A stretch of 64,000 nucleotides of DNA. Origin: Aphrocallistes beatrix (Eukaryota; Porifera; Hexactinellida; Sceptrulophora; Aphrocallistidae). Under the pieces are notes generated by a model. That model had not been told where the DNA came from, searched no databases, and worked only from the letters and a program-made list of their open reading frames with translations. Position 1 is the first letter of the stretch. Each line of letters begins with the position of its first letter. Made by a program: the position numbers and the translations under genes. The stretch spans positions 10,823,524 through 10,887,523 of the forward strand of contig OY725488.1 of the NCBI GenBank assembly GCA_963281255.1. Direction: 5' to 3'. Positions 29,984 to 63,531 of the stretch are shown here, in pieces.

Positions 29984-30028
29984 TTTCCTTATTTGTTCTT
30001 CCAATATTTAATTGCTTTCTCATTCCTA

Positions 30029-32856: not shown

Positions 32857-34380
32857 ATGTCAAACTCTAAAAATAAAATGAAAGCTAAAGATAGGCCAAG
32901 GATCATTCCAGTGCTTATATCCACGATAGCTGCAAGCCTTGGGGCATTTCTAATTGGATATAGCATCGGGTACCCGTCTCCCATTGAAGAAGATGTTAAG
33001 AATTTAAAGATTTTTGATAGCAACACGTTTCCCATATTTGGATCATTCCAGTCCTTCTTTGCGATAATCGGAGCCATTCTTGTTTTTTTCTTCGTCGAAA
33101 CTTCGGGTTTAAAGGTACTCATCATTATTTTTACTGTCCCTAATGCTCTAGGTTGGATATTGATAGCATTCGGGTACAACTGGATCATTATGCTCTTGGG
33201 TAGAAGTCTGACAGGTATTGCATATGGTGCTCTTTGTTGCCTTATCTCTGTTTATATAGCAGATTTATCCCCCACTAGAATGAGTGGAATTTTTGGGAGC
33301 TTTTTCTCACACTTTTTAATCTTAGGCATTATTTCAAGTCACCTTTTAGGCATATTCTTAACATTCAGATGGTTGGCAGTGGTATGCATATTTGTTCTTT
33401 TCATTCAGGTATTGCTGCTCTTCTTCCAACCTTATTCTCCGAACTGGTTAGTGATACAAAAACAGGAGAGAAGAGCTCTGAAAACTCTCCAATATCTGAG
33501 AGGTCCATCCTATGATTCTCGAGCAGAATTTGATGAGATTAAGCAAGTCGTAGAAGATAATTTTTCTGGAACTTTCTATCAGCGGTTTGTTACGTTATTT
33601 AGAGGAACAAGTTACTTGAAAACTATTTTAAAAGTTGGAATTCTTTTTGCACTCTTGGACTTAACAGGTATTACATTCGTGGGTACGTATTCAGCAAGTA
33701 TTTTAGGAACCTGTCGCTTAATTCCTGCAAATATAGTCTCACTTCTTCCCACTTGTGTCCAATGGATCACTACATTCCTGTGTACCCTTTTCGTCGATAG
33801 GATTGGAAGGAAGATTCTGTTGATATTGTCTTCTGTTGGAGTTATTTTCAGTCACATGATTAATTCTGTGTACTTTTTCGGGATTGATCACTTATGGCAG
33901 CATTGCGACTCTATAACTAACTCGTCCTATCCCACCATTTCCAACAGTGGATTGAACAGTGAAATATTCTGTGATTACATCACTATGCTCCCTGTTATTG
34001 CTTTAATTATCCTCAGAGGATCTTATGGATTTGGATGGGGTCCTATACCATTTATCATCCTAGGAGAATCTTTTCCTATCAAGATTCGTTCTATGGGTGC
34101 TAGTTTCTCAGTTATATGTCTCCTCCTCTCATCCGGAGTCCAGACTTTACTCTTCCCATACCTTGCAAAATTCCTAGGGACTTATGTGGTGTATCTAATC
34201 TTATTATTGATAAATATTTTGAGTGCAATGTATGTGTTGATTTTCATTCCAGAAACAAAAGACAAAAGCTTGGAAGAGATTGAAGTATTATTTGAAGAAA
34301 AGACACGCTTTTCTCCTCTGAAATGTTCAAATATTTTTGAGAAGAGGTACGTCTACGTCGTTAATAAAGATTGTCCTTAA
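32857..34380 (+). CDS. SLC2/Tret1-like sugar transporter, copy D (diverged)
   Basis: A 507-aa, 12-TM transporter, the most diverged full-length member. Motifs present are GRSLTGIAYG, DLSPTRMSG, PYSPNWL, VDRIGRK, GESFP and PETKDKSLEEIE. Two positions of functional interest differ: TM10 reads GPIPF where the sisters and most glucose transporters have GPIPW, and TM7 reads DLTGITFVGTY in place of the usual QQxSGIN. The tail ends KDCP, three residues beyond the KD of the sisters. Around 33334-33452 the DNA is almost identical to copies A-E while both sides differ at about one base in four, suggesting gene conversion. Opposite strand to its sisters and paired with a 7TM pseudogene downstream. Confidence 0.9.
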   Translation: MSNSKNKMKAKDRPRIIPVLISTIAASLGAFLIGYSIGYPSPIEEDVKNLKIFDSNTFPIFGSFQSFFAIIGAILVFFFVETSGLKVLIIIFTVPNALGWILIAFGYNWIIMLLGRSLTGIAYGALCCLISVYIADLSPTRMSGIFGSFFSHFLILGIISSHLLGIFLTFRWLAVVCIFVLFIQVLLLFFQPYSPNWLVIQKQERRALKTLQYLRGPSYDSRAEFDEIKQVVEDNFSGTFYQRFVTLFRGTSYLKTILKVGILFALLDLTGITFVGTYSASILGTCRLIPANIVSLLPTCVQWITTFLCTLFVDRIGRKILLILSSVGVIFSHMINSVYFFGIDHLWQHCDSITNSSYPTISNSGLNSEIFCDYITMLPVIALIILRGSYGFGWGPIPFIILGESFPIKIRSMGASFSVICLLLSSGVQTLLFPYLAKFLGTYVVYLILLLINILSAMYVLIFIPETKDKSLEEIEVLFEEKTRFSPLKCSNIFEKRYVYVVNKDCP

Positions 34381-35326: not shown

Positions 35327-36505
35327 TTAGTTATCATGAATTGAACATCAACCCTTTTAAAAGCATTAAACGCTTGCTCCTGAAGACATCGCTGATAAGC
35401 ATCTTCCTCATAATATCTGGATCCATTCCTCAGTTAATCATGATAGAGTGGTTAGTTGAGCCAATAATACTGTCCGTTTACTTTTGCATCTGGGTCAAGA
35501 GTAATCGAACATTCTACAAAACTCTGCAATGGAGGACTATGGAGTATAGAATCAGAGGAAGAAGCAATTGCATTGTCAGAAGATCAATCATCAACTGTCA
35601 CCAATTTTTGATCTTCAGTAGTTGTGTTGGAGTCATATTCTCTTGTACTATACTTGGTCAATTCTTGATACAATACTTCCATTTGATCGAAGTTGGAATT
35701 TATGATGGGCCTTGCCTTTTTCAATACTCCTATCGGACTTCTTACAACAAGTTTGTCATTTCTACTCAACATCAAATCGGTTCATTTGAACTTGCTCGTG
35801 AATCTTTTGCGTTTGTTAATATGTTTCTGGGTTTAACAATATCCTTTCAATATCCTTACTATTAAAACTCGATTAATGTTTATATATATATATATATATA
35901 TGTCACGAATTGATTGAAGAAACTGCCAGGCGCAGAAAGCTGATTTTTGGCATGTGGGAGTATTTTGGCTATGGCTCCAGTAAGTTCTGAGCTCAGAGCA
36001 AAATGTCGGCTCATCATGGAATTATGACGTCATTGTCACATTTTTAAGTTAAGCAACACAGTTATTCGAGCATAACTCAGCCATTATAGGAGATAGAAGG
36101 CTGAAATTTTGATAGAATGTGTATATTAATATAACTCACATATGATGCAACTATCATCAAAAAATGATGACACATCACTCTGTTATGACGTCATCATTAC
36201 GCATCAAAAATTTTATAATTGACAAATTTGGTGATTTCTCGAGTGAATCGATTTTAAAACTAAGATGGACATATTTAGAGATGATATCTCCCTTATAATT
36301 AACCAATGACATCCCCAGGCGACCGAAGGGAGCCTCCGGCGGACACAAAGTGTCCGCCAGCCGCACAGCGGAAGCAAGCAAAGCGCGCTTGTAGTATTAC
36401 TTGGTGTGGAGTATGTGCTGGTAAGTGTCTTTATTTGCGGGGTTATCATCTTGAGGCAACTAAAGTTTCGATTCTACAGAGTCCGCACCAGGTTTACACC
36501 TAGTC
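35327..36505 (+). pseudogene. 7TM family A copy 1, truncated and interrupted
   Basis: The match to the intact 7TM gene at 51539 begins at ISYHELN in the loop before TM4 and runs through TM4-TM6 and the RIRGRSNCIVRR loop to TM7. There a 539-bp Helitron-like element (35853-36391) sits. TM7 then resumes (VLLGVEYVLVS) and the cytoplasmic tail follows to RTRFTPS. TM1-TM3 are missing and the last residues (DEPLLF equivalent) are cut off. A GTCATAGCCTACTCTA junction at 36505 leads into transporter fragment DNA. Confidence 0.88.
35853..36391 (+). mobile_element. Helitron-like element inside a 7TM pseudogene
   Basis: It begins TCCTTACTATTAAAACTCG after an A, and ends GGCGGACACAAAGTGTCCGCC (hairpin, trimmed by one base at an end in the family) then GCAAAGCGCGCTTG before T. 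A (TA)n run lies at about 35880-35902. It splits TM7 of the surrounding 7TM copy. Confidence 0.65.
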
Positions 36506-40601: not shown

Positions 40602-41573
40602 CTACCGTTGAAAATTATAAGATGAAAACCTATCTACGAAAAAGGTACACAGGAATGCAGTGATCCATTGGACGCAAGTGGGGATGAGTGAGGCTATTTT
40701 GGCAGGAATTAAGCGACTGGTCTTTAGAATGGTAGCGGAATACGTCCCCACCACTGTAATACCTGTCAATTCGAGGAATGCAAAAAGAAGCGCGACTTTG
40801 AAAATAGTCTTCAGATAGTTTGTCTCTTTAAATAATGTAACGAATCGCTGGCAGAAAGTATCCGAGAAATTCTCTTCTACGACATGCTTAATCTCATCAA
40901 ATTCTGCTCTGGAATCATGAGAAGGACCTCTCAGATATTGGAGAGTTTTCAGGGCTCTTTTTTCTTGTTTTTGTGTCACTAACCAGTTCGGAGAATATGG
41001 TTGGAAGAAGAGCAGCAATACCTGAATGAAAAGAACAAATATGCATACCACTGCCAACCATCTGAATGTTAAGAATATGCCTAAAAGGTGACTTGATAGA
41101 GTACCGAGAAGGAACATGTGGGTGAAAAAGCTCCCATAGAATCCCTTCCGGCTAGTGGGAGACAGATCTGCTACGTACACAGAGATTAGGCAACTAATAG
41201 CACCGTTTGCAATACCATTCAGACTTCTACCCAAAAGCATAATGATCCAGTTATACCCGAATGCAATCAACATCCAGCCTAGAGCATTAGGAATTGTGAA
41301 GATGATGAGGAGTGCCTTTTTGCCAAATGGTTCGACAAGAAAATACACAAGAATGGCTCCGAATATCGCAGTGAAGTACTGGAGTGAACCAAAAATGGGA
41401 TAAGTGATGCTATCAAGAATTCCTAGATTCTTAATGTCATCCTCAATTGGAGATGGATACCCGAGACTATAGCCGAAGCAAAACGATCCAAGATTTGCCG
41501 CTACCGTGATTGTAAGGACTGGAATTACTCTTGGTCGAAATTTAATTTCAGCTTTTCTCTTAGAGTCCAACAT
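40602..41573 (-). pseudogene. Transporter copy E, truncated after TM8 and fused
   Basis: The N-terminal 316 residues are intact and resemble copy C (MLDSKRKAEIKFRPRVIPVL), through TM8 and VDRF. There the sequence switches to SSYNFQR and stops. That tail is the decayed TM9-region fragment found 3' of the other transporters, so a deletion joined the two. TM9-TM12 and the PETK motif are missing, so transport is unlikely. An in-frame ATG six codons upstream (41591) exists. 41573 aligns with the sister starts and keeps the TATA spacing. Confidence 0.85.
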
Positions 41574-41615
41574 TTTCATTTCTTTTTCCAATTGTTAATT
41601 GCTTTCTCATTTCTA

Positions 41616-46400: not shown

Positions 46401-47477
46401 ATGATTAGTCGCGAAGTACTACGTTTCATGAATTCTATCGAAATACTAGGATTATGTCCGGTCATCATACTTTCATTGCTAATATCGGTTATCTGGGATA
46501 TTTATTTCGCTAAGAGGATATTATATTTCGTGAGGATATATCGAGAATGCATGATAAAGGCTAAAACTGATCCATTCGGAAATTTTGCGGAAGCAGCACG
46601 CAATTACAAAGTGGAAATAGTTACACACGTTTTTCTGCTGATTATGAACATCACTGAATTCACTACAATTGGAGTGTACTTAGGAGGATCGAATGCCAAC
46701 TTACTGATTTTTCATTCAAATCATACTGATCTTAAAAATGCTACAATTCATGATTGCAAAGAAGAACTTCAGCTTCGAATGCTTGATTTTGAAATACTCA
46801 TTGCGAATCCTTTTTTTCTAATTCTATACACAATTGCACAAGTAAGCTTACTATTCTCCATTGCGCTTGGAATTTGTCTCGTGAAGTATCTTCACATTAG
46901 TTATCATGAATTGAACATTAATCCTTTTAAAATCATCAAACGCTTTCTCCTGATCACATCACTAATAGGAATTTTCCTCATAATATCTGGATCCATTCTT
47001 AAGTTAATGATCATGAACTGGTTAGTTGAGCCGATAATACTGTTCACTTACTTTTGCATCTGGGTCAAAAGTAATCGAACATTTTACAAAACTCTGCAAT
47101 GGAGGACAATGGAGTATAGAATCAGAGGAAGAAGCAATTGCATTGTCAGAAGATCTGTCATCAGCTGTCACCAATTTTTGATCATCAATAGTTGCTTTGG
47201 AGTAATACTCGCTTGTACTATACTCATTCAATTCTTAACGCAATACTCCCTCTTAATTGCGATTGCATTCTTTGATGGGCCATGTCTCTTCCAATACTTA
47301 TATGGGACTTCTTACCACAAACCTCTCCTTAATACTCAAAATCAAATCAGTTCACTTGAACTCGCTCGTGAATATTTTGCCTTTATTTTGTTGTTCCTGA
47401 TCTTAACAATATCAGTATTACTTGCTGTGGAGTATGTATTGGTAAGTGCCTTCATTTGCGGGGCTATCTCATCTTGA
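46401..47477 (+). CDS. Orphan 7TM protein, subfamily A copy 2 (frameshifted tail)
   Basis: A 358-aa multipass protein starting MISREVLRF. The earlier in-frame TTG is not needed. Seven hydrophobic segments are visible, with a basic loop after TM1 (KAKTDPFGNFAEAARNYK), an N-glycosylation-rich loop between TM2 and TM3 with one Cys, and a basic loop between TM5 and TM6 (RIRGRSNCIVRR). A second Cys lies before TM7 (DGPCLFQ). Near 47464-47469 two extra bases (CT) relative to the sisters shift the frame inside the end of TM7, giving AISS and a stop. The DNA for the conserved tail (RTRFTPSL-EPLLF) continues out of frame to 47562. Possibly a pseudogene or an allele without the tail. Function unknown. 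Confidence 0.75.
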   Translation: MISREVLRFMNSIEILGLCPVIILSLLISVIWDIYFAKRILYFVRIYRECMIKAKTDPFGNFAEAARNYKVEIVTHVFLLIMNITEFTTIGVYLGGSNANLLIFHSNHTDLKNATIHDCKEELQLRMLDFEILIANPFFLILYTIAQVSLLFSIALGICLVKYLHISYHELNINPFKIIKRFLLITSLIGIFLIISGSILKLMIMNWLVEPIILFTYFCIWVKSNRTFYKTLQWRTMEYRIRGRSNCIVRRSVISCHQFLIINSCFGVILACTILIQFLTQYSLLIAIAFFDGPCLFQYLYGTSYHKPLLNTQNQISSLELAREYFAFILLFLILTISVLLAVEYVLVSAFICGAISS

Positions 47478-47562
47478 AGCAACTAAAGTTTCGATTATAC
47501 AAAGTCCGCACCAGGTTTACACCTAGTCTTGATGAGCCACTACTCTTCGCTCATACAGATTG
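47478..47562 (+). pseudogene. Out-of-frame cytoplasmic tail of 7TM A2
   Basis: Encodes QLKFRLYKVRTRFTPSL, then an EPLLF-type end, in the frame used by the sister genes. It is detached from the upstream frame by the 2-bp insertion. Confidence 0.8.
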
Positions 47563-49330
47563 AACAGAAAATATTATATACTACTACATATATGTATTAT
47601 CTTCCTCAGTGTTCAATATTGTGTTATATTTAGTGCCCACACAAATAACTACATTTTTGTTACTTAAAGATACTTTTTCGTATATTAATTATGATGTTTT
47701 ATGTATTAGTAGTATATCTTGGAATAGTTAAAACATATTAAACTAGCATTGTGTTAATATATAGTGGCTTCATAAGCGTAGACTCCAACAGGGTTAGTAG
47801 GACCATAACCCAAACAATAATTTCGAAGGCTATTATTTTCTATTGTCCATAATAGGATTTGTCAAAATAGCTATACCAATCCTGATTCCAGAGTCTACAC
47901 TTCTAGGTTAAAGCCTTTTTTTGGATGAAATTTATTGTTAGCAATTATACTTGGCATCATTTGGACAAATACTTGTTTTTTCAAGATCATAGATATGCGT
48001 TACCAGCATATGCTACGTACACTTAGTTTGAACAAATAATTTTACAGCAATGAAGTAAAATATTAGTAAACCTATTAATACAAAAGTTTTATTTTATCCT
48101 TTAATTAATGTGAATTGACAGTGGCAGCAGTTAGCTAATTAACTGAATCTGGCTATGCATAGGCAAAAAATATATTATTAAGCATGCGAAGTTACCTATA
48201 ATCTGACAAATAACACAATTTATAATTTGCAACCGTTTACAGTTTTGGAAATAGCCACCAAGATACATTACTTAGCAACGCAAACATTCGAATTTCTAAA
48301 TGTCTAAGGTGAAATTTCTTAAAAGGAGAACGTTATTGATGCAACATGAGCTCTGCAAAAAATGGAAAATTATTTTTCACACATTTTCTATACAATATAA
48401 ATGACTTCACTTCAGAGCATTATAGGAGCGCGCTCCTATTTTGGAGAGCGGAGACTGAAGCGCGCTCCTTTTGGAACACAGGAGCAGAAAACGGAGCGGC
48501 GTTCTTACTTTTGAGGAGTGAGCTCACTGGAGCGCACTCCTTTTAATGAAGTTTATTTTAACAATTTCCCTAGATATCTAACAATTTTTCTCAATATTTC
48601 TTACTGAAATTCAATTTAGGTAATGAATTTTGAAAAATATGCTTGAAACTAGCTTTCAACTATCGAACTTTTGTTTATAAGGATGTGTAGATCCCAAATA
48701 TAATATTATCGATCCTATACTGATAATCTTCTTTTTGTTTGCAAGAGATTCATAAAACCAAATTTGAAATGAATTAGTGGAAGTGATCAATATTTGGCAC
48801 TCGTAGGGACGCACCCATGGGGATTCTGTCGACATAAAGTGTCCGCTAACCGTGCTAGGCAAATGCACAAAATGAGCTTTTATATATTATGCTATTGCGA
48901 TACGAGATTAAATCAGTTTTACAAATAATCCCATTTTATCATCTCTATCAAAATACGTAGCATTCCAGCATAAACATATCCTTTGAAATCATTGAACTAT
49001 TACAGTATATCTATGTTATATTGAGATGATAAGAAGGGATTGTGTGCGATCGAATTCCTAAGACACAACTCTTAATTGAGATTGAATGGATTTAGACGAA
49101 GGGATTGTATTACTAGGGATGTATTTGAAGTAATCAATTTCTTCTTCTTTCACTATTAATCTTTTTGCTAACGAATTGATTATTACTGAAATAAATATTT
49201 TTCAAGGTAGCTATTAAATCATCCTATTTGCAAGTAGTTTTAACGCTCAATTTAAAATTAAAACAGCATTCATGTATGATGATTTAAGATTGGAGTCATA
49301 CTTTTCTCTGGCAAACTCTGAAGAGGCATA
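47563..49330. other. Intergenic DNA, no gene
   Basis: Non-coding apart from MITEs. A decayed Helitron-like 3' end (CGACATAAAGTGTCCG then GCACAAAATGAGC) lies near 48825-48880. Confidence 0.6.
48414..48550. mobile_element. Palindromic MITE (GGAGCGCGCTCC)
   Basis: AGCATTATAGGAGCGCGCTCC on the left (first base aside) mirrors GGAGCGCACTCCTTTTAATG on the right, with GGAGCG/CGCTCC repeated inside. Related to the fragments at 7009 and 18711. The open frame at 48346 that crosses it is not a gene. Confidence 0.65.
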
Positions 49331-49338
49331 TATAAATA
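49331..49338 (+). promoter_or_regulatory. TATA box of 7TM A3 pseudogene
   Basis: TATAAATA 70 bp before the ATG at 49401. Confidence 0.5.
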
Positions 49339-49400
49339 GTCCAATATTTGATCCAAAGATGAATAATTTCTAGTTATACTACAGTAATATATCATTGAAA

Positions 49401-50535
49401 ATGTTTAGTCACGTATCAACGTATAGTGAAATACTTCTTTACACTTATAATACTGCCAGTATTCATAGCTGCTACCTGGGACATAAATTTTGTGAAGAGA
49501 ATTGTTCATTTTGTGAGAATATATCGGAAATGTAGGATTAATGCTAAGACTGATCCATTCGGAAATTTTGCGGAAGCAGCACGAAATTACAAAGTGGAGA
49601 TAGTTACACACGTATTTTTGCTAATTATCAATATCACTGAATTTATTACTTTGATAATGTACATGGGCGGATTAACTGTTAATTACCGGAATTCTTTTTC
49701 AAATTCCACTTATTTCATAAATGGTGAAGATTATGAAGCACTTCAGTTTCCATCGTTTGAATTCAAATTAACCTTTGCAAATCCATTTTTTCGCATCATA
49801 GTATCAACTGCACAAGTAAGTTTACTATTTTCCATTGCGTTTGGAATTTGTCTCGTGAAGTATCTTCACATTAGTTATCATGAATTGAGCATTAACCCTT
49901 TTAAAATCATCAAACGTTTTCTCCTGATCACATCACTGTTAAGCATCTCCCTAATAATATCTGGATCCATTCCTCAGTTAATCATGATAGAGTGTTTAGT
50001 TGAGCCGATAATACTGTTCGTTTACTTTTGCATTTGGGTTAAATGTAATCGAACATTTTACGGAACTCTCCAATGGAGACGTATGGAGTTTAAGATCAGA
50101 GGAAGAAGCAACTGGATTGTCAGAAGATCTGTCATTAACTGTCAACAATTCGGGATTATTATGAGCTGTATTGGTTTCATACTCGCTTGTATAATACTTG
50201 CTCAATTTCTAACACAAAAACTCTTTCTTAACCTCGATAGCTCTCTACGATGGGCCTTGTCTTTTCCAATACTTTTATGGAACATCTAACACAAGCCTGT
50301 GCTTGCTACTCAGAAACAGATCGCTGCACTTGAACTCTCTGATAAAGTTTTCTCTGGCATTATCAAATCCCTGATCGTAATAGCGATGGTGTTACTAACG
50401 ATAGAGTATGTTTTGGCAAGCGTATTGATTTTCGGGACTATTATTTTGAAGTCACTAAAGTTTCGAATTTACAAAATTCGCACCAGATTTACACCCAAAC
50501 TTAACGAGCCTTTACTCATCAATCCTGCAAATTAG
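49401..50535 (+). pseudogene. Orphan 7TM, subfamily A copy 3, at least three frameshifts
   Basis: The proper ATG (MFSHVSTYSEILL) is in a different frame from the body, which opens around 49426 (FTLIILPVFIAATWD). Homology then runs through TM1-TM6. Before 50250 the frame is lost near the DGPCLFQ segment (read as LRWALSF). After 50299 it resumes with PVLATQKQIAALEL, TM7 and the full tail RTRFTPKLNEPLL. The loop between TM2 and TM3 has no Cys, unlike the intact copies. The GTG at 49426 is not a credible start. Confidence 0.85.
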
Positions 50536-51478
50536 CAAAATTGCTATGCAGTACTACTACATATACGTATGTATTTTCTTCAGTGTTTAGATAGATCTCT
50601 TTTGAACCCCCAATTTTAGATACTTTTTATTTTGTGCATACGGTATTTATAATTGTTCCATTATTTGTTATTACTTGAATCATTGCTTTCTAAATATGCA
50701 AGGCCATTTCACTGATTTTAGCCAGGGATAGGATGAAGATAGCGATAATCAATACTAATGTAAATATCGAAAATGTCCATTATAAGTCTAAATAATATAT
50801 TAACAACACATATAAACATGATATCAAAATATTTTCGGTTAATAAGGTTTTCCGCTTAATCGGGGCAAAATGTCCTTTGATCGATGCGGCCCTATTAAGC
50901 GGTGTCGACCCCACTTTTTAGTTATGCCTATTTTATTGACTATGTTAGTAGATGTAAGTACTCGTATCCATTACTAATTTCCATTTATCTTGTACAAGCA
51001 CTGCCCCTGAACTCATGAACCATCTTACTAGTACGACTATGTCTCGTGGATACAATATACTGGAATTATTACGTAATAAATACTAAATTGAATTTAAAGG
51101 TGGAGATTGAATGTATGACACCAAGGGACTTATTTTGAGATGATATTTTGTCATAATTTAATGCTAACCTATTTTCTTGAAATTGGATTCTTTGAGGGAA
51201 AATACAGAATGTTAGCATTTTAAATGATCCCAAAGTTCATTGTAGTAATCTGATGAACACGTAATATATTGGATTAACTAAATTGTGCAATCACAAATGC
51301 AAACGTGTATAGGGTATATACTGAATTCTAGCAAAGATCCATAGCACCACGGGACTTATTTCAAGTTTGTACTTTCATCTTACTTCATTGTGATCATTTG
51401 GTTGCAAATTGATGCTTAAAACTTAATGAAGTATGATCTAAACGAGATTCTTTTCTTCGGATAGTCCCTAAAATACAC
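50536..51478. other. Intergenic DNA upstream of 7TM A4
   Basis: No gene. A MITE piece with TTCCGCTTAATCGGGGC lies near 50845-50900; related ends occur at 54476-54522. The motif AAGGGACTTAT occurs at 51123-51133 and ACGGGACTTATT near 51349-51360. Confidence 0.55.
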
Positions 51479-51486
51479 ATATATAC
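51479..51486 (+). promoter_or_regulatory. Weak TATA-like box of 7TM A4
   Basis: CACATATATACAC about 55 bp before the ATG, preceded by TAGTCCCTAAAA at 51462-51473, an inverted form of the shared GGGACTTA motif. Confidence 0.4.
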
Positions 51487-51538
51487 ACTATTCGATGCAA
51501 ATTCAATAATTTTAAGTTGTACTCATCAATTGTTATAA

Positions 51539-52696
51539 ATGATTAATAATGATCTATTCCAAGTTAGAAATATCCAAGAATGGGTACTCTTTCCAGTTAT
51601 AACACTTTCAGTGTTTATATCAGTTATCTGGGACACTTATTTCATAAAGAAAATAGTTCATTTCGTGAGAATTTATCAAGAATGTATGGAAAGAGCTAAG
51701 ACTGATCCATTCGGAAATTTCGCAGAAGCAGCACGCAACTACAAAGTAGAGGTAATTACAAACGCATTTTTGCTGATAATGAACATAACTGAATTCACTA
51801 CAATTGTAATGTACGGAGTAGGTTCGGTGCCTACTAATAGCATGAACTTTAATTCAAACTACAATGAGTCTATAAATGGTACAGTTCACGATTGTAGCAA
51901 AGAATATTTTCACACGCTTGATTTGGAATTGGCCTTTGAGAATCCTTTTTTTTCCATCCTAATATCATTTGGAAAAGCGGGACTACTATTCTCCATCGCG
52001 CTTGGAATTTGTCTCGTGAAGTATCTTCACATTAGCTATCATGAATTGAACTTTGACTCTTTTAAAATCATTAAACGTTTTCTCCTGATCACATCACTGA
52101 TAGGCATCTTCCTCATAATATCTGGATCCATTCCTCAGTTAATGATAATAGAGTGTTTAGTCGAGCCAATAATACTGTTCGTTTACTTCTGCATTTGGGT
52201 CAAAAGTAATCGAACATTCTACAAAACTCTACAATGGAGGACGATGGAGTATAGAATCAGAGGAAGAAGCAATTGCATTGTCAGAAGATCAATCATCAAC
52301 TGTCACCAATTCTTAATTATTTCTAGTTGCATTGGGGTAGCACTCGCTTGTATTTTAATCACTCAATTCCTAACGCAATACTTCTTTTTAATCGCGACAG
52401 CTATTTACGATGGGCCTTGTCTCTTCCAACACCTATTTGGGACTTCTTACTACAATCCTGTACTAACTACTCAAAATCAAATCGGTTCACTTCAACTCTC
52501 CAGTGATGTTTTCTCACTTATTAATAGGGGTTTGCTCATAATTGTATCAGCATTATTCGCTGTAGAGTATGTGTTGGCAAGTACCTTCATTTTCGGAGTT
52601 GTCATCTTAAAACAACTAAAGTTTCGAATTTACAAACGCCGTACCAGGTTTACACCTAGTCTTAACGATCCGCTACTCTTCGATCATGCAAATTGA
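51539..52696 (+). CDS. Orphan 7TM protein, subfamily A copy 4 (intact)
   Basis: 385 aa, the only clearly intact A copy. Predicted TM segments lie near residues 17-36, 70-93, 137-160, 181-204, 207-222, 257-290 and 326-357. Charge places the N-terminus outside and the C-terminus inside, as in GPCRs. The loop after TM1 is unusually long and charged (37-69). The TM2-TM3 loop has glycosylation sites at N109 and N113 and Cys119. The loop before TM7 has DGPCLFQ with Cys294. The TM5-TM6 loop is RIRGRSNCIVRR (239-250), and the tail is RTRFTPSLNDPLL (368-380). No DRY or NPxxY. No family recognised. Intronless, ATG supported. A chemoreceptor-like role is inference from tandem expansion only. Confidence 0.85.
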   Translation: MINNDLFQVRNIQEWVLFPVITLSVFISVIWDTYFIKKIVHFVRIYQECMERAKTDPFGNFAEAARNYKVEVITNAFLLIMNITEFTTIVMYGVGSVPTNSMNFNSNYNESINGTVHDCSKEYFHTLDLELAFENPFFSILISFGKAGLLFSIALGICLVKYLHISYHELNFDSFKIIKRFLLITSLIGIFLIISGSIPQLMIIECLVEPIILFVYFCIWVKSNRTFYKTLQWRTMEYRIRGRSNCIVRRSIINCHQFLIISSCIGVALACILITQFLTQYFFLIATAIYDGPCLFQHLFGTSYYNPVLTTQNQIGSLQLSSDVFSLINRGLLIIVSALFAVEYVLASTFIFGVVILKQLKFRIYKRRTRFTPSLNDPLLFDHAN

Positions 52697-52989
52697 GCAG
52701 AAAGTATTAAATTCCCCTACAATACTATATAACTATCCTTACTAATGTAGACATCAGAAACAATACATATCATGCACATTTAGAGATATTATATAATATA
52801 TATTTTTGTAATTTTCCTTTGCTACTAGTTGAGTTTTAGGACCTGTAATCTGTATTTTTGTTATTATTAAAACTTTTGAAAATTGATATAATTGTACTAT
52901 AATATGGAGTTTTACGGATAGGCTCTGATTTTGATTTCAAATTTTCAACAGAGACTGCAAGAGTGTAAGAATTTCCAAATAGTAAAATC

Positions 52990-53738
52990 CATGGTGGTAG
53001 TAATGTATTCCATTCTAATATTTTTGATTTAGATTTAGCTATTGTAAATCCAATATTTTCCATCATAATATCAGTTGCGCACGTCGGAATGATTTTCTTT
53101 ATCTGTCTTGGAATCTGTCTCGTAAAGTATCTTCATTTCATATCATCAAATCAATATCAACCCTTTCAAATTCATCAAGCATTTCCTCACAATAACATTG
53201 TTGATAGGAATTTTCTTTGTAATAACTGGATCTATTCCTCAGTTAATGATCATTGAAAAGTTGATTGAGCCTGTGACATTGTCCGTCTATTTTTATATTT
53301 GGATAAAGAGTAACATAACATTCTACAAAATTCTACGATGGAGAAGTATGGAGTTTAGAATCAGAGGCAGAAGCAACTGGACTGTTAGAAGATCTGTCAT
53401 TAGCTACCAACAGTTTATGATAATCATGAGTTGCGTAGGAATTATCTATGGATGTTTTTTGGTAGCTGAATTTCTGTTACAATACTTTTTCCTAATTGTG
53501 ACAGCTCTTTATGATGGTCCCTGTTTATTCAACTATTTATACGGGACTGCCTACTTCAAGCCTCTACTGACTACACAGAAACAGATTGATGCCTGAACAT
53601 CAGTCATAAGATTCTCACATATATCTTAACATTCTTGATACTAGCAGCATCAGTGTTGCTAGGCGCGGAATATATCTTGGCGTACCAGGTTCACACCTAG
53701 CCTTAATGAGCCACTGCTCTTCACTCAAGCAGATTGAA
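52990..53738 (+). pseudogene. Orphan 7TM, subfamily A copy 5, degraded
   Basis: The homology begins in the TM2-TM3 loop (TM1-TM2 absent) and continues through TM3 (ISVAHVGMIFFICLGICL) and, after a frameshift at the SYHE equivalent, TM4-TM6 in one frame from 53198. A stop follows KQIDA at 53596. TM7 is partly present, and a deletion joins EYILA directly to YQVHT in place of the RIYKRRTRFT region. The tail DNA (LNEPLLFTQAD) ends near 53738. Confidence 0.85.
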
Positions 53739-54709
53739 CCATACAGGAAATGTGGAAATATAGCTACAAAAATACATGATTGTATATCAATGCGCTTTTC
53801 CTGATTATTTCGTATTTTCTTGTCAACAGCTCAATCAGTTAGATTACATTCTAAACAGCCATAGTTAGGATTTGATATAAAGACCTAATACTAATTATTC
53901 TTTTTAAATTCTTGGGTTTACTACTTATGTCTCACATTTAAAATATGCAATAATTATTATGTGTATAATCTAAAATAACTTGTCGTGGAGATTGGAAGAA
54001 TTCCTATCAAATAAATGATCTCAAGTGGTTTATATAAAGTTAACTATTTCATTATCCTTCAATGTTAACTTATTAGTGATAAATATTGAGATGAGAGGAA
54101 TTTTGAATTTGCGTGGAGATAGCAAAATTTATCATTCTTATCTGTGATCAAAATATTTGTCCGATCGCTTAGCTTTTTACAGCATAAACTCGTCTAGTTG
54201 ATGGTAGATGAAATGCATAATATCAGGTTTCAATTTCACATTGGGACACTTGTGATTATTAGCTCAATAGGAATGTGGAAAATACAGGACGACTGCCATA
54301 AACAGGACAAATCCCCAAATAAATTGCAAATAAATAATTTTCAAAATGCATTTCCTACTTTGTACAGCGCCAAGTAGGAATACAATCAACTCCACTCAAC
54401 CAGGATAAGTTTCCAGGAACGGGAATCGTTCTCATGCATAGTAACTAATGCGAAATTTATGTTAATTGGGAACTTCGCTTAATCGGGGAAAAATATCCGG
54501 GACCAAAGTGTCCCGATTAAGCGGAACAACCTGTGTTTCAATAACATAAATTACTCCAACTCGGTCTTTAGATTCTTATTTGGCGCAAAACAATGCATAT
54601 TCTTACTATTGTATCATTATGCATGAAAACTGAAAGATATCAAATTGAGCTAATCGGTAATTAAACATCGAAAGAATAGTACATCACACAAGTTTTTAGC
54701 AACTACAGC
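53739..54709. other. Intergenic DNA, no gene
   Basis: Non-coding. It includes a short MITE with TTCGCTTAATCGGGG / CCCGATTAAGCGGAA ends (54476-54522) and a segment (54279-54480) that resembles 58970-59190 upstream of 7TM B3. Confidence 0.55.
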
Positions 54710-54717
54710 TTATATTG

Positions 54718-54865
54718 GATATAGTGATAGTACGGGGACAGGAAATGTTTTGTCAAATTATCACTATATCCAATATATATTCAATAAAATTGGAATGGAA
54801 TGTCATCGACTGGGGCACCTCAAACCCAATAAAATTATCACTATATCCTATATATCACTATATCC
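54718..54865. promoter_or_regulatory. Cluster of ATCACTATATCC motifs upstream of 7TM B1
   Basis: The 12-mer occurs at 54760-54771, 54837-54848 and 54854-54865, and inverted at 54718-54729. The first inverted pair could form a hairpin. The arrangement is preserved upstream of 7TM B3 (59355-59492). It could be a regulatory cluster or a small transposon carried with the gene. Confidence 0.4.
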
Positions 54866-55124
54866 ACTATCTACTGTATCACATTACTATAAATTTGGAA
54901 CAAAATAATCTATCCGGGAATTAAAAAGTATAATTTCCAATGCTAATCCCAATGAAGTAATAGGGTGTAGCTTTTCACAAAACAGCATAATGTGATTGGG
55001 TCTCAAAAGTAGTCAATTACAAATTTATGATTTACTACATAATAATTGACAAAGGTTAGTACATCAGCATTGCTCGTATGCTTACTGCGGGAATTAAAGC
55101 AATTCATCTATTCTAGTTGAAAGG

Positions 55125-55148
55125 TATATAAACAACTGTGGACCGTTT
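55125..55148 (+). promoter_or_regulatory. Core promoter of 7TM B1
   Basis: TATATAAA at 55125-55132 followed at once by ACTGTGGACCGTTT (55135-55148). The same TATA plus ACTGTRGACCGTTT pair precedes B2 and B3. Distance from TATA to ATG is 65 bp. Confidence 0.65.
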
Positions 55149-55189
55149 GAATTAAGATAAATCAATTTAGTAAAGTCATTTTGATAAAG

Positions 55190-56302
55190 ATGAGCATTGT
55201 GGACACTATTAGTCGTGATATAGATTACTTTTTTTTCTTCTATTCATTCTTGTTTGCTGGGTTGACAATACTTTGGAATGTCTACTTTGTGAAGAAGATT
55301 CTGTACTTCGTTAATTTGTACAGAAAGTCCATAGATTCAGCTAGGAATGACATACTCAATAACTACACAGAACTAGCACTACACTACAAAGTTGGAATCG
55401 TTAAGTATGCATTCCTCTTAGCAATAAATATCACCGAAATCAGTTCAGCCATAATATTTCTACTCGGAGTAGGAATGACTGTTGTAAATTCAACCAATGC
55501 CACAATTAGCAATTGTTATAGTGAGATATATAACATTGATTTGTATGTCATTACTGGAACTCCAATGGAAGCAGTTTTCAGCAGTATTGGACATGCGGGA
55601 TTTTTAATGTCATTAGCACTTGTGACATGCCTAATGGAATATCTTGATGCAGCATATCATAACATTAATAATCAGTCTCTGAAGTCCACTAAAATCATCC
55701 TTTTAATCTCGTGTGTAATTGGAGTTCTACTGATTATCACAGGCTCTATCCACCAATCATATATCCTTGAAAGGCTCATCTATCCTATTGTATTGCTGGT
55801 ATATTTTAGTTTTTGGGTCCGACAAACTCGTATATTTTATAAAACACTGGAGTGGCAGTCCATAGAGTATCGAGTTAGAGGAAGGAGCAGTCAGATAGTA
55901 GAGAGAGCAGTCAAAAGCAGTCACCATTTTGCTATCATAATGTGTCTGATGGGAATTGGGGTACTTAGCATAACTTTAGCTCAACTCATCAATGATTATT
56001 TTTTCATATTCACTATATTTGCTTACTGTCCAAACCTTGTCACACAACTCTATGGAACTCCTGACTACGAACCTCTGTTTACTACAACACCACAAATGAA
56101 CGCTTTTATACTTTCCGGTGAGATTACTTTAGGAATTCAGACAACCCTATATCTGATTGCTTTCCTAGCCATTACTTCTCAATACGTGTTAGCTACATTT
56201 GTATTCTTCCTTGGAATGTTTGTAAAGAAAATCAAATATCGTTTCGGAAGAGTTCGCACGAGGTTCACTCCTAGCCTTACTGACCCACTTCTCATCTCTT
56301 AA
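55190..56302 (+). CDS. Orphan 7TM protein, subfamily B copy 1 (intact)
   Basis: 370 aa from the ATG at 55190 (MSIVDTISRD). The in-frame TTG three codons earlier is rejected because B2 has the same length from its ATG. Seven hydrophobic segments lie near 14-33, 70-93, 127-150, 168-190, 196-211, 246-278 and 315-345. Distinctive features: ELALHYKV then NITE at the TM2 start and end; glycosylation sites N100 and N103 with Cys109 in the TM2-TM3 loop; FAYCPNL with Cys280; basic TM5-TM6 loop YRVRGRSSQIVERAVK; tail RVRTRFTPSLTDPLLIS. N-out, C-in by charge. About a quarter to a third of residues are shared with subfamily A, including YKVEI, NITE, the RGRS loop and the RTRFTP tail. No known family recognised. 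Confidence 0.87.
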   Translation: MSIVDTISRDIDYFFFFYSFLFAGLTILWNVYFVKKILYFVNLYRKSIDSARNDILNNYTELALHYKVGIVKYAFLLAINITEISSAIIFLLGVGMTVVNSTNATISNCYSEIYNIDLYVITGTPMEAVFSSIGHAGFLMSLALVTCLMEYLDAAYHNINNQSLKSTKIILLISCVIGVLLIITGSIHQSYILERLIYPIVLLVYFSFWVRQTRIFYKTLEWQSIEYRVRGRSSQIVERAVKSSHHFAIIMCLMGIGVLSITLAQLINDYFFIFTIFAYCPNLVTQLYGTPDYEPLFTTTPQMNAFILSGEITLGIQTTLYLIAFLAITSQYVLATFVFFLGMFVKKIKYRFGRVRTRFTPSLTDPLLIS

Positions 56303-56469
56303 TTAAGTCTGTTTCAATATAGTGCGAAGTATTCCATGTTAATTTCTGTTTTTTAATCTGTAATTTCTATAATTAAATGAGTGACATGTAATTAATTCAT
56401 TGATAAACATTTTGAAAGCAAACTAAATACTATGAAAGAATCGAAAGATCATGAGCGATGGCGCAGAAC

Positions 56470-56745
56470 CAGCTCATAATATCTGAATCTATCCCCCAGT
56501 TAATGATTATAGAGCGGTCAATTGATCCAATAATACTGTTTCTCTACTTTTGAATTTGGGTTAAGAGTAATTGAACATTTCACAGAACTCTACAACTAAA
56601 TAGTATGGAGAGTAAAGAATCAGTGAAAGAAGCTGTGAGACTACCAGAAGATACGTCGTTAACTGTGGCCAGTTTTTGAATCGTTATTAGTTATACGTTT
56701 GGAGTCATTCATGCTTGCACCATACTTGATCAACTTGTAAGATGG
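56470..56745 (+). pseudogene. Subfamily A 7TM fragment between B1 and B2
   Basis: Degenerate match to TM4-TM6 of the A genes (ISESIPQLMIIERSIDPIILF, then FWVKSN and the RGRS region) with several stops. It shows that A and B loci were once interleaved. Confidence 0.8.
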
Positions 56746-56756
56746 GTGATCAAGTA

Positions 56757-57020
56757 TTATTAATGACAAGAGCGCTTCACGCACTTGTGTAGCGCGGCTA
56801 GTGAATTTGTGTTCGCAGAGTCGCCTTGCGGGCGCCTAGAAATGTAGTTCAGAAGTCCGTACGGGTGTCAAATATTCAAAAATTGATACTTTCACTAATC
56901 CATCCTAAATTTGCTTATCCTTAGTAGTAAAACTCGATTAATATTTATTTGTATGTATATCTGTAACGAATTGATTGAAGAAACCACCAGGCACAGAAAG
57001 TTTCTATTTGGTATAGGGAG
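56757..57020. mobile_element. Decayed Helitron-like ends, back to back
   Basis: A minus-oriented 3' end (GACAAGAGCGCTTCACGC, GC-rich hairpin remnants GTGTTCGCAGAGTCGCC) at 56764-56850 is followed by a plus-oriented 5' end TCCTTAGTAGTAAAACTCG at about 56918 and the ACGAATTGATTGAAGAAA body. Strongly diverged. Confidence 0.5.
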
Positions 57021-57510
57021 TCATTTAGCTATAGCGTTGCACACCGCCAAGTAGGAATATTTCAAAAACGAAAATTATTCCAACTTGGTTGTGCGAAGTA
57101 TGTATATTCTTATTTGGAGCAATTTCCTTCTTGGTGCAGAACAATTTCAAACGTTATGTATTGTATAATTATGTATGGAGCCTTTTTAACGGAAAGATAT
57201 CATATTAGCTAAGCGGAGTTTGTACATCGAAATAATTATGCATTACACTATGTAAGTTTTAGCAATTATTATCTTACTTTAAATTCGGAAAAAATAAATG
57301 ATCTGGGATTTTTAAAGGTATAATTTCCAATGGAAATCCTAATGAAGTAATAGAGCATAACATTTCATAATACAGCATAATGTGATTGGACCACAAAGTA
57401 CTAAGTTGGATTCAGTACATATGCATATGCACATGTTAGCATATCAGCATTGGTTCATATGCTTACTGCACGGAGGATTAAAACAATTTGCCTATTTTAA
57501 TTGAAATGAA

Positions 57511-57532
57511 TATAAGCAACTGTAGACCGTTT
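57511..57532 (+). promoter_or_regulatory. Core promoter of 7TM B2
   Basis: TATAAGC at 57511 (weaker than in B1 and B3) followed by ACTGTAGACCGTTT at 57519-57532. 63 bp to the ATG. Confidence 0.55.
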
Positions 57533-57573
57533 CATTCAGGATAAATCAATTTAGAGAAGTCGCTATAATAAAG

Positions 57574-58686
57574 ATGAACATTCTGGAAAGGATTATTAGT
57601 ATTTTAGATCACTTTCTGTTTTTCTACTTATTCTCGCTTACTGGATTGACATTGCTATGGAATGTCTACTTTGCAAAGAAGATTTGGTACTTCGTTACTT
57701 TGTACAGAAAGTCCGTAGAGTCAGCTAAGAATGACATACTCAATAACTACACAGAACTAGCACTACACTACAAAGTTGAAATCGTTAAGTACGCATTCCT
57801 CTTAGCAATAAATATCACAGAAACCAGTTCAGTCCTAATATATATACTCGGACTAGGATTGACTGATGTAACCCGAACAGATGCCACAATTAGTAATTGT
57901 TCTAATAAGATATACAACATTGATTTGCATATCATTACTGGAGCTCCGATGGAAGCAGTGCTACTCAGTGTTGGACGAGTCGGGTTTTTAATGTCATTAG
58001 CACTTGTGACATGTCTAATGGAATATCTTGATGCTACCAATCATAACATCAATAATCAGTCTCTGAAGTCCACTAAAATCATCCTCTTGATCTCATGTAT
58101 AATTGGAGTTCTACTGATTATCTCAGGATCTATCCACCAATCATTTATCCTTGAAAGGTTTATCTATCCTATCATAATATTGATATACTTTAGTTTTTGG
58201 ATCAGACAAACTCGTAAATTCTACAGAACACTGAAGTGGCAGTCCATAGAGTATCGAGTTAGAGGAAGGAGGAGTCAGATAGTAGAGAGAGCAGTCAAAA
58301 GCAGTCACCATTTTGCAATTGCAATGTGTCTAATGGGAATTGGGGTTCTTTGCTTAAATTTGTCTGAAATTGTCGATGGTTACTTTTTCGTATTCACTAT
58401 ATTTGCTTATTGTCCAAAACTCATCAAACAATTCTATGGAACTCCTGACTATGAACCTCTGTTGACTACGAAAAGTCAAATTGATACTCTGGCGATTTTC
58501 AGTCAGGTTAATGCGCTTATCTCGACAAGTCTGTCATTCATTGCTTACTTATCCATTACTTCTCAATACCTGATAATTACATTCGTATTTTTCGGTGGGA
58601 TGCTCGTAAAGAAACTCAACTATCGTTTCGGAAGAGTCCGAACGAGGTTTACTCCCAACCTGACTGACCCACTTCTCATCTCCTAA
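57574..58686 (+). CDS. Orphan 7TM protein, subfamily B copy 2 (intact)
   Basis: 370 aa from a clear ATG (MNILERIISI). Same seven-segment layout and length as B1. Conserved elements are NNYTELALHYKVEIVKYAF, NITE, Cys109 (here within NCS at 108), FAYCPKL, YRVRGRRSQIVERAVK and tail RVRTRFTPNLTDPLLIS. The two glycosylation sites of B1 at 100 and 103 are changed (TRTDAT), so surface modification may differ. The first 40 residues differ most from B1. Its promoter has the shared ACTGTRGACCGTTT element but not the ATCACTATATCC cluster. Membrane receptor-like protein of unknown function. A ligand-binding role is inferred only from topology and family expansion. Confidence 0.87.
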   Translation: MNILERIISILDHFLFFYLFSLTGLTLLWNVYFAKKIWYFVTLYRKSVESAKNDILNNYTELALHYKVEIVKYAFLLAINITETSSVLIYILGLGLTDVTRTDATISNCSNKIYNIDLHIITGAPMEAVLLSVGRVGFLMSLALVTCLMEYLDATNHNINNQSLKSTKIILLISCIIGVLLIISGSIHQSFILERFIYPIIILIYFSFWIRQTRKFYRTLKWQSIEYRVRGRRSQIVERAVKSSHHFAIAMCLMGIGVLCLNLSEIVDGYFFVFTIFAYCPKLIKQFYGTPDYEPLLTTKSQIDTLAIFSQVNALISTSLSFIAYLSITSQYLIITFVFFGGMLVKKLNYRFGRVRTRFTPNLTDPLLIS

Positions 58687-58829
58687 GACTGTGATAGAAT
58701 TCATTTTTTGCTGTGTTTGTTAATTCCATATTTAAATAAGGAACATGTGATTAGTTATTGAGTAAACATTTCGCTTTGATAATCCTATGCATAAATATAA
58801 ATAATTTTCATACTTCACTTCAGTACTCT

Positions 58830-58965
58830 ATATTGGGCCTCGTATTAGTTTCAGGAGCGGTCACAGGAATTTTCCAAACCTGGACGATGCGGGGCCAAAG
58901 GAAGATCCGGGGGCCTTCTTATGATTTGGCTTAGATTGTCGAATGAAACCCGGGGCAAATGCACT
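58830..58965. repeat. Repeated GC-richer segment 3' of B2
   Basis: Recurs at 61065-61200 3' of B3 (GGTCACAGGAATTTTCCAAAC, last base variable). Part of the duplicated 3' flank. Non-coding. Confidence 0.6.
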
Positions 58966-59354
58966 GATGCCCTCTATCCTGATTATCGCTTGTAAACCAC
59001 AATAATCAGGACGGCTCCTCAAATAAATTGCATACAAATACTTTCCAATGTGTATCTCCTACTTTGCACAGCGCCAAGTAGGAGTATGTACAATAAACTC
59101 CACTCATCGGGACAAGTTTCCAGGAACGGAATGGTTCCCATACGTACATAGAAGCTAATACTAAATTTCATCGGTTAATTGGGATTATTATTGGTATTAT
59201 TATCATTTGGCGCGGAACAATGCATATGCTAACTATTGTATCATTATGCATGAAAGTTTTTCAACTGCAAAGATATCAATTTGAGTTATTTGACAATTAA
59301 ACATTGAAAGAATTGTACATTACACTAAGTGTTTTAGCAATTACAGTATATATT

Positions 59355-59492
59355 GGATATAGTGATAGTACCGGGTACAAGAATTTTTTGTCAAATTATT
59401 ACTATATCCAATAAAATTAGTATGGAATGTCATCGACTGGGGCACCTCAAACCCAATAAAATTATCACTATATCCTATATATCACTATATCC
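59355..59492. promoter_or_regulatory. ATCACTATATCC cluster upstream of 7TM B3
   Basis: Copies at 59464-59475 and 59481-59492, an imperfect one near 59398, and an inverted one at 59355-59366. Colinear with the cluster before B1. Confidence 0.4.
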
Positions 59493-59753
59493 ACTATCTA
59501 CTGTATCACATTACTATAAATTTGAAACAAAATAATTTATCCGGGATTTTAAAAAGTATAATTTCCAATGCTAATCCTAATGAAGTAATAGAGAATAGCT
59601 TTTCATAAAACAGCATAATGTGATTGGGTCTCAAAAGTAGTAAATTACAAATTCATGATTTAGTACATAATAATTGACAAAGGTTAGCACATCAGCATTG
59701 CTCGTATGCTTACTGCGGAGAATTAAAGCAGTTCATCTATTCTAGTTGAAAGG

Positions 59754-59777
59754 TATATAAACAACTGTGGACCGTTT
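59754..59777 (+). promoter_or_regulatory. Core promoter of 7TM B3
   Basis: TATATAAA at 59754-59761 and ACTGTGGACCGTTT at 59764-59777, the same as B1. 65 bp to the ATG at 59819. Confidence 0.6.
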
Positions 59778-59818
59778 GATTTAAGATAAATCAATTTAGA
59801 GAAGTCAGTTTGATAAAG

Positions 59819-60930
59819 ATGAGCATTCTGGACAATATTAGTCGTGATATAGATTACTTTTTTTCGTTTACTCTTTCTTGTTTGCTGGGTTGACAATGCT
59901 ATGGAATGTCTACTTTGTGAAGAAGATTATGTACTTCATTAATTTGTACAGAAAGTCCATAAATTCAGCTAGGAATGACATACTCAATAACTACACAGAA
60001 CTAGCGCTACACTACAAAGTTGAGATTGTTAAGTTTGCATTCCTCTTAGCAATAAATATCACCGAAATCAGTTCAGCCATAATATATACACTCGGAGTAC
60101 GATTGACTGTTATAACCCCAAACAATGCCACAATTAGCATTTTTTCTAGTAAGATATACAACACTGATTTGCATGTCATTATTGGAACTCCAATGGAAGC
60201 AGTGTTCACCAGTGTTGGAAATGCAGGATTTTTAATGTCATTAGCACTTGTGACATGCCTAATGAAATATCTTGATGCTACCTATCATAACATTAATAAT
60301 CAGTCTCTGAAGTCCACTAAAATCATCCTCTTAATTTCATGTGTAATTGGAGTTCTACTGATTATCACAGGATCCATCCACCAATCATTTATCCTTGAAA
60401 GACTCATCGATCCTATTATAAAACTGATATATTTTAGTTTTTGGATCATGCAAATTCGTACTTTCTACAGAACACTGAAGTGGCAGTCCATAGAGTATCG
60501 AGTTAGAGGAAGGAGCAGTAAGATAGTAAAGAGAGCAGTCAAAAGCAGTCACTATTTTGCAATTGCAATGTGTCTGGTGGGAATTGGGATACTTTGCATA
60601 ACTTTTACCGAAATTATCAATAGTTCCTTTTTCATATTCACTATATTTGCTTATTGTCCAAAACTCATCAAACAACTCTATGGAACTCCTGACTATGAAC
60701 CTCTGTTGACTACAAAAATGCAAATTGATACTCTGGCGATTTCCAGTCAGGTTGGTAGGCTTATCTCGGGAAGTCTGTCATTCATTGCTTACTTATCCAT
60801 TACTTCTCAATACCTGATAATTACATTCGTAATTTTCGGTGGGATGCTCGTAAAGAAACTCAACTATCGTTTCGGAAGAGTCCGAACGAGGTTTACTCCC
60901 AACCTGACTGACCCACTTCTCATCTCCTAA
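59819..60930 (+). pseudogene. Subfamily B 7TM copy 3, mosaic with 1-bp deletion
   Basis: The ATG at 59819 starts MSILDNISRDIDYFF exactly like B1, but one base is missing in the T-rich run near 59859-59870, so this frame stops at CLLG. The remaining 350 codons are open from FAGLTMLWNVYF to RTRFTPNLTDPLLIS. The N-terminal half and promoter match B1, while the C-terminal half and 3' flank match B2. Cys109 of the TM2-TM3 loop is Phe here (ATISIFSSK), so the conserved Cys pair is lost. The TTG at 59878 is not a credible start. A sequencing error in the homopolymer is possible. The lost Cys argues for decay. Confidence 0.75.
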
Positions 60931-62287: not shown

Positions 62288-63531
62288 CTAGTATATATGT
62301 AGCTTGAACTTAGTATCTACTGAGGAACAAACAATCTGGTTATTTGGAGTTATCACAATTCCTCGAGGTTGTATTTCTGTATTTTCTTTCTTACTACCAC
62401 TTAATGTGTGTAGGAGAGTTCCTGCTTGGGAAAAGACCTTAATACATCTTGCTTTGTAGTCACCAATAACGATATTGCTCTGTTTATCAAAGCAGAAACA
62501 GAACCCTTCTCCTACCTGGTAGCAACTTCCCTCCCCGCAAGTAATGAATGAGCGAAGTTTGCTACCAGAATGATGGAACACGTGGAGACACGGGTTATCT
62601 ATCTCGCTCAATACATACACTTCCTCATTTAGTGTCTTCACGTCATAAGGTCGAGTCATGGAGGAGTGTTGAATAGATTGTTTAAATTTAAGCTCAGAAT
62701 CCCGAACTACAACTCTATTGTTGCCATTATCTGCTATATACACATCTCCATTAGTCGATACTGATATATTTTGAGGATGAGAAAACTCATTCTTTCCAGA
62801 TCCTTTCTTACCTACTTTAGAAACCAAACGGTTGCCTGGGGTAGTTTATACTGGACTATGGTGCATTTAGAATAGTCGCCGACATATAGATTATCACCAC
62901 TAACAGCTATTCCCATTGGAGCACATAATTTTCCATGACCAAATGAGTTCATGTATCCTCCTTCTTCAGAGAATACACACACTCTACCACCCGACACGAA
63001 ACTACAGTCTGCTACATATATGAGGTGACTAATCTCATTATATGCAATACCATACGGCCAATAGAGTTGTCCGGGTCCTGTTCCTTCTGTACAGATGGAG
63101 ATGCGTGGCTGTGAAAGTGCAGAGTAGTTGGGAATAGAAGTGTCCTCTTTTTGGATGAGCTGTCCCAGCTGAGAGATGGTCTCTTCCACTGCACGCGTAT
63201 CACATTGGAACAATAGTTCCACAGGTCGATCAGTTACTTCCAATTCTTTCAGCTGAGTTTCGATTTCCTCCGCCATCTTCTCTCTCAGAGCTTGGAGTGT
63301 ATTCTCCACCATTTTCTCCTGGAGGTGTACCTTGGTCTCGAGAAGCTGTTGTCTAGTCCTATCACGGCCTGTCTCCCTTGCTCGTATCTCCTCCCTCTTA
63401 TCTCTGTATTTTTCGAGGAGCGCTTCACGTCGCTTGTTCACTGTTGATACCAGCTCATCAAAGTGTTTATCTATTTCTGCTTCAACTGGGTCTGTCACTA
63501 CATTCTGTGATTCAGGAAATTTCACTGCCAT
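62288..63531 (-). pseudogene. Coiled-coil NHL-repeat protein (TRIM-NHL-like, no RING), frameshifted
   Basis: The first frame (63531-62812, 239 aa) has a charged coiled coil at about 15-125 and two NHL repeats (GPGQLYWPYGIAYNE-IYVADC at 153-189 and CAPMGIAVSGDNLYVGDY at 203-220). The second frame (to 62288) continues with EFSHPQNISVSTNGDVYIADN, further repeats and PRGIVITPNNQIV. The frames change at a G run (62838-62841; C run on the coding strand), where one base more or two fewer would join them. The intact product would be about 410 aa, a beta-propeller scaffold probably binding protein or RNA. No RING or B-box precedes it. A sequencing error in the homopolymer is as likely as true decay. 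Confidence 0.8.

Follow-up and report, generated by a model that had tools for sequence, protein, structure and literature searches.

A tandemly expanded family of candidate seven-transmembrane receptors in the sponge Aphrocallistes beatrix

Family loci in the window

The window analysed here is a stretch of 64,000 nucleotides from the genome of the hexactinellid sponge Aphrocallistes beatrix (G000:C1:10823524-10887523; 100.5 Mb in 28 contigs). It carries a tandem family of genes for proteins of 370-385 amino acids (aa), encoded in single open frames and containing seven hydrophobic segments. A preliminary description made from the letters of the DNA had proposed such a family, and open reading frames (ORFs), tblastn and hydropathy agree with it. 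Window loci were located by ORFs together with tblastn, and all those described in this section lie on the + strand. The interval 46401-60930 holds seven family loci and one fragment; the fragment had been described correctly, but the eighth locus formerly counted there (35329-36504) lies outside the interval. Only the copies at 51539, 55190 and 57574 are intact, and the rest are disrupted by frame shifts, a stop or deletions.

The window copies fall into subfamilies A and B. The outlying locus at 35329-36504 is a partial member of subfamily A that aligns by tblastn with residues 166-337 and 339-374 of a 385-aa query, with about 550 bases between the two parts; residues 1-165 were not found. 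The copy at 46401-47560 (ORF, tblastn) is open from the ATG at 46401, and a frame shift near 47465 puts its tail in another frame. At 49438-50532 (ORF, tblastn) lies a broken copy in which the bases, read by eye, show an in-frame TAA at 50287-50289 flanked by two compensating frame shifts. The intact gene of this subfamily, of 385 aa, occupies 51539-52696 (ORF, tblastn) and has a TATA-like box 59 bases upstream. It is followed by another broken copy at 52969-53734 (tblastn), which changes frame at 53135 and for which tblastn did not find query residues 1-109 and 318-367.

Subfamily B has two intact genes of 370 aa, both seen as ORFs and by tblastn. The gene at 55190-56302 starts at the ATG at 55190 (the ORF list begins at a TTG at 55181) and is preceded at -65 by TATATAAA, while 400 bases upstream of the gene at 57574-58686 are without TATAWA. 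Between them, at 56473-56739, lies the fragment, which covers the TM4 to TM6 region (TM, transmembrane segment) with three internal stops (tblastn). The last copy, at ~59810-60930 (tblastn), is frame-shifted about 20 codons in and open from ~59863; the shift adjoins a run of T and might be an assembly error. More generally, the frame shifts of the window copies may reflect real decay or assembly error. The region upstream of the 55190 gene (54776-55090) matches 59403-59718 in two blocks at 95% identity, and therefore gene and upstream region were duplicated together. A short, MITE-like (miniature inverted-repeat transposable element) inverted-repeat element lies upstream of both of these subfamily B copies, at 54694-54775 and 59332-59413, with arms TTGGATATAGTGATA and TATCACTATATCCAA.

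Genome-wide family and predicted architecture

At least 157 places on 16 of the 28 contigs belong to the family. They come from five single-protein genome searches (111, 107, 110, 107 and 112 scored matches), the first four contributing 153 places and the fifth four more, all with shorter open frames, of 316-321 aa; each search scores only its ~107-112 best candidates, so that 157 is a lower bound. Together with this number of places, the low tblastn E-values between window copies (down to 1e-133 for the 49438 copy, 1e-153 for the 46401 copy and 0.0 within subfamily B) argue that the window family is not a product of chance. The 153 tabulated places comprise 134 with an open frame of at least 360 aa and no internal stop, 15 with an internal stop and 4 that are short. 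The first figure comes from a loose test that is no proof of intactness, and it overstates the number of intact genes, including as it does the frame-shifted window copies at 46401 and 59863; the degraded window loci at 35329, 53135 and 56473 stand outside the 157. Long matches follow the query almost from end to end without changing frame, and the coding part is thus a single open frame. The biggest cluster has 55 copies in 247 kb (C1:10869933-11116568), its left end being position 46410 of the window, and 33 places are singletons under a 30-kb rule.

The two subfamilies of the preliminary description hold up in a tree of the family. Subfamily A (46401, 49438, 51539) forms a clade with support 0.995, and subfamily B (55181, 57574, 59863) sits inside a clade of 4 members with support 0.948 and inside clades of 15 and 28 members with support 1.0 each, the deepest nodes on the A side being poorly supported. 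A division into two nevertheless understates the larger tree, from which the window samples two branches.

Motif counts, selection and sequence variability were assessed in 52 of the 157 members, picked for being open and, in part, for being divergent. Hydropathy averaged over 20 aligned members gave 12 runs above threshold, which we grouped into seven segments, TM5 being the weakest. Loop charges, likewise from 20 members, fit the positive-inside rule for an outer N-terminus and an inner C-terminus (third intracellular loop, ICL3, +8.6; C-terminal tail, +6.1), the charge bias noted previously. The N-terminus has ~15 residues and the first extracellular loop (ECL1) ~30. Two loops pointed out earlier are also present, the long charged one after TM1 and, linking TM5 to TM6, the basic one of RGRS type. 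N-glycosylation sequons are densest in ECL1, at 4.0 per 100 residues, and occur there in 52/52 members. In 51 of these members ECL1 and ECL3 each carry a cysteine; the one in ECL3 is present in all 52, either at column 280 just before a conserved proline (18 members) or at column 282 just after it (34). These columns and column 109 in ECL1 are the outer-loop cysteine columns shared by at least 15 members, a pattern that suggests an ECL1-ECL3 disulphide. No such column exists at the top of TM3 or in the 6-residue ECL2, where the disulphide of class A receptors would lie, and the class A motifs DRY and NPxxY each occur in 0/52 members, as the preliminary description had it. The nearly invariant tail RTRFTPxLxDPLL is also borne out, with TR[FY]xP in 49/52, and conserved polar residues lie in or near the membrane (N80 and E83 in TM2, H157, Q189, Q302). 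Because of the seven hydrophobic segments, the positive-inside charge, the ECL1 sequons and the ECL1/ECL3 cysteine pair, the proteins are predicted to have the topology of G-protein-coupled receptors (GPCRs), with seven TMs, the N-terminus outside and the C-terminus inside.

Purifying selection acts on the family. The ratio of nonsynonymous to synonymous substitution (dN/dS) ranged from 0.21 to 0.81 and was below 1 in 41/41 pairs above 72% identity, pairs that are not independent of each other. The external loops vary more than the internal loops do (mean 2.12 vs 1.42 bits, p = 5e-8), and in 6/7 helices it is the outer half that varies more, the exception being TM4. Of 31 genes, 29 have a TATAWA box 35-120 bases ahead of the ATG, the intact gene at 57574 being one of the two without it; a control stretch lying farther upstream has the box in 7/31, and shuffles give an expectation of 8.6. 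This count omits L009, L016, L018, L025, L028, L032, L034 and L035 (broken or with an ambiguous start; L035 by oversight) as well as L041-L060, which have no flank, and the box is partly common to related copies by descent. Since so many carry the box, most of the genes examined appear to be transcribed as short units of their own.

Classification, proposed role and alternatives

Searches with hmmscan gave no credible Pfam match in 45 distinct loci, including to 7tm_1, TAS2R, 7tm_2 and 7tm_3. Weak and inconsistent matches were rejected as chance: the best (ActD, E 0.0027) appeared in 1/20 members, and any single Pfam family in at most 3/20 members in one scan and 2/31 in another. PDB sequences gave 0 matches for one protein and 0 for a 20-member profile; the single match of a 31-member profile, a soluble enzyme at E 0.67, was not credible. 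In the genome, none of the 3 matches to PF00001 falls on the family, and none of the 36 matches to 7tm_3 or the 143 to 7tm_2 overlaps a listed member (coordinates compared by eye). A genome-wide TAS2R search returned 0 matches, which is weak alone since control genomes also gave none. Among prokaryote genomes and IMG/VR, 12 and 17 pattern matches were obtained and none was confirmed as a relative, and no title or abstract opening in the open-licence PubMed Central (PMC) literature was found to describe such a family. Judged by these comparisons, the family appears unclassified, in the sense of being absent from the sequence libraries searched (Pfam, PDB), and the earlier statement that it matches nothing recognised stands.

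Two structure models of moderate to low confidence lend moderate support to a GPCR-like fold, GPCRs making up 50/50 and 45/50 of the chains among the matches listed. Class T bitter receptors ranked top for both models, tied with other classes within 1 Z unit, and the models thus appear to single out no one GPCR class. The preliminary description had named a structural match to a known family as evidence against its reading; such a resemblance is seen for the GPCR fold in general but not for any particular class. The insect-type 7TMIC fold was not among the best 50 matches of each fold search, which does not exclude it.

The other receptors of the genome were counted by six-frame family searches, which may miss class A genes split by introns. 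Class A (7tm_1) had 1 gene over the Pfam cut-off among 3 matches and class C (7tm_3) had 31 among 36, so that the family, with its at least 157 places, exceeds both in these searches; 7tm_2 gave 143 exon-level matches, and G-alpha 59, mostly partial and many below cut-off. The scarcity of class A is unlikely to be a failure of the tool, because the 7tm_2 and 7tm_3 searches worked. In Amphimedon, a survey reports 126 Rhodopsin, 40 Adhesion and 33 Glutamate receptors gathered by Pfam domain (PMC4302439). In such a survey of an early animal a family without a model would go uncounted.

We lean towards reading these genes as a lineage-expanded family of GPCR-type seven-TM receptors, amplified by tandem duplication, with a common signalling face and a chemosensory role. 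The proteins would be cell-surface receptors with seven helices, the N-terminus outside and the C-terminus inside, and tandem duplication would have amplified their genes in this genome. With a single open frame and a TATA-like box before most genes examined, different cells could each express individual members. A diverse pocket for ligands may be built from the variable outer helix halves and from ECL1, which is probably glycosylated and joined to ECL3 by the disulphide. The basic and conserved ICL3, inner helix ends and RTRFTP...LL tail may in turn form a shared face for signalling and trafficking, most simply for heterotrimeric G proteins. From the diverse outer face, the ECL1 sequons, the conserved ICL3 and tail, the promoter-like boxes and the tandem turnover with broken copies we infer that the role is probably chemosensory, for a dissolved or microbial ligand. 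The preliminary description had suggested chemosensory or surface-recognition receptors; genome scale, promoter-like boxes and a sequence variable outside and conserved inside strengthen the former.

Several observations weigh against this reading. Sequons also occur in TM2 (30 of 52 members), ICL1 (26), ICL2 (14), the C-terminal tail (14) and ICL3 (10). Single open frames are less telling than they might seem, since 26/31 class C GPCR matches over cut-off likewise fall within open frames, 600-890 aa long, as do the neighbouring sugar transporters (506-513 aa). A bolder form of the proposal, which we advance tentatively and would not expect to hold in full, is that the family is a separate GPCR class, marked by the ECL1-ECL3 disulphide, the long ICL1 and the RTRFTP..LL tail, and has become the principal chemosensory repertoire in an animal that lacks nerves and has lost nearly all rhodopsin-like receptors; an olfactory-type receptor multigene family would then have arisen independently and before neurons.

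The family could instead be a highly divergent branch of a named GPCR class, A or T, whose sequence drifted past detection by hidden Markov models (HMMs), which we consider rather doubtful. TAS2R receptors are short at the N-terminus, intronless, arranged in tandem and subject to rapid turnover, and have ~300 aa. The family shares the first four of these traits as well as the top, though tied, structural rank; it differs in its length of ~370-385 aa, its ECL1/ECL3 cysteine pair, its long ICL1, its tail and the lack of an HMM match. Class A receptors, including the sponge-specific groups of Amphimedon, have a GPCR-like bundle, as modelled for the family, the same orientation and large expansions in sponges (PMC4302439). 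Against class A or T, neither 7tm_1 nor TAS2R was matched in any of the 45 loci and the genome-wide TAS2R search was empty (its control was silent too); DRY and NPxxY are missing in 52/52, the cysteine pair is ECL1/ECL3 and not TM3/ECL2, and fold-match differences below 1 Z unit are ties. GPRch3, one of several unplaced GPCR families of choanoflagellates and animals, resembles the family by its description: it is reported to have short N- and C-termini, to be unlike described families and to have homologues in sponges. It differs in being reported as ancient, its homologues extending to diverse metazoans and other eukaryotes (PMC12716839).

Receptors of the same membrane architecture might also serve self/non-self, symbiont or microbe recognition, as immune or allorecognition receptors. 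The big repertoire, the broken copies and the variable outer surface would suit such a role, and microbes would be the main chemical surroundings of a filter feeder; but no large extracellular domain accompanies the short N-terminus and ECL1, and a gene-averaged dN/dS below 1 in all 41 pairs indicates no gene-wide strong diversifying selection, and we hold this to be unlikely. Insect odorant and gustatory receptors have seven TMs and ~380 aa and form large families. A ligand-gated channel of this type, with the 7TMIC fold and the N-terminus inside, would share with our family these traits, the long helices of the model (H2-51, H188-230, H235-279, H300-353) and the large tandem organisation. 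It is nonetheless highly improbable: the charge pattern, the ECL1 sequons in 52/52 and the cysteine pair point to the opposite orientation, and Pfam-A models, which include 7tm_6 and 7tm_7, were unmatched. We think it quite improbable, too, that the proteins are a non-receptor membrane family with seven helices, such as a transporter, enzyme or scramblase. The polar residues conserved within or close to the membrane and the adjoining sugar-transporter array would fit this, receptor activity being our inference; however, all 50 aligned chains listed for the better model are GPCRs, and the family's size and variable outer face would be unusual for transporters.

Should the GPCR-type family indeed be the chemosensory repertoire, it would reveal by what means an animal lacking neurons detects food, microbes or settlement cues, and olfactory-type gene families would have arisen independently once more. 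With so many members open and apparently under promoters of their own, the chemosensory reading lends itself to direct testing.

Neighbouring genes and other observations

Closely similar sugar-transporter genes form a tandem array at 4352-41591 of the window. In the ORF list they appear as long ORFs at 7873-9393, 19678-21198 and 28463-30004 on the - strand and at 32857-34380 on the + strand, and as shorter ones at 40602-41591 (- strand), 13257, 24970 and 4352. The Pfam Sugar_tr assignment comes from three of them (7876, 32857 and 13257). Two of the long copies are near-identical by eye, pointing to recent segmental duplication. On the other side of the receptor-like genes, an NHL-repeat protein extends over two overlapping open frames on the - strand (62288-63531; 62288-62827 and 62812-63531), either as a frame-shifted gene or through a sequencing error. 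Rfam gave no match on the window at gathering thresholds.

Elsewhere in the genome (L073; G000:C7, ~4856000-4858800), a 414-aa open frame that has six hydrophobic runs and a 7tm_2 match is closely followed downstream by a PIPK domain, and this is probably a GPCR-PIPK gene. Among metazoans such genes are reported only from sponges, and choanoflagellates and others also have them (PMC12716839). Like the NHL-repeat gene of the window, this locus is in keeping with a sponge, without being proof of one. Within the receptor-like array, at 48420-48540, reading the bases by eye revealed a cluster of palindromic GAGCGC/GCGCTCC motifs in AT-rich surroundings.

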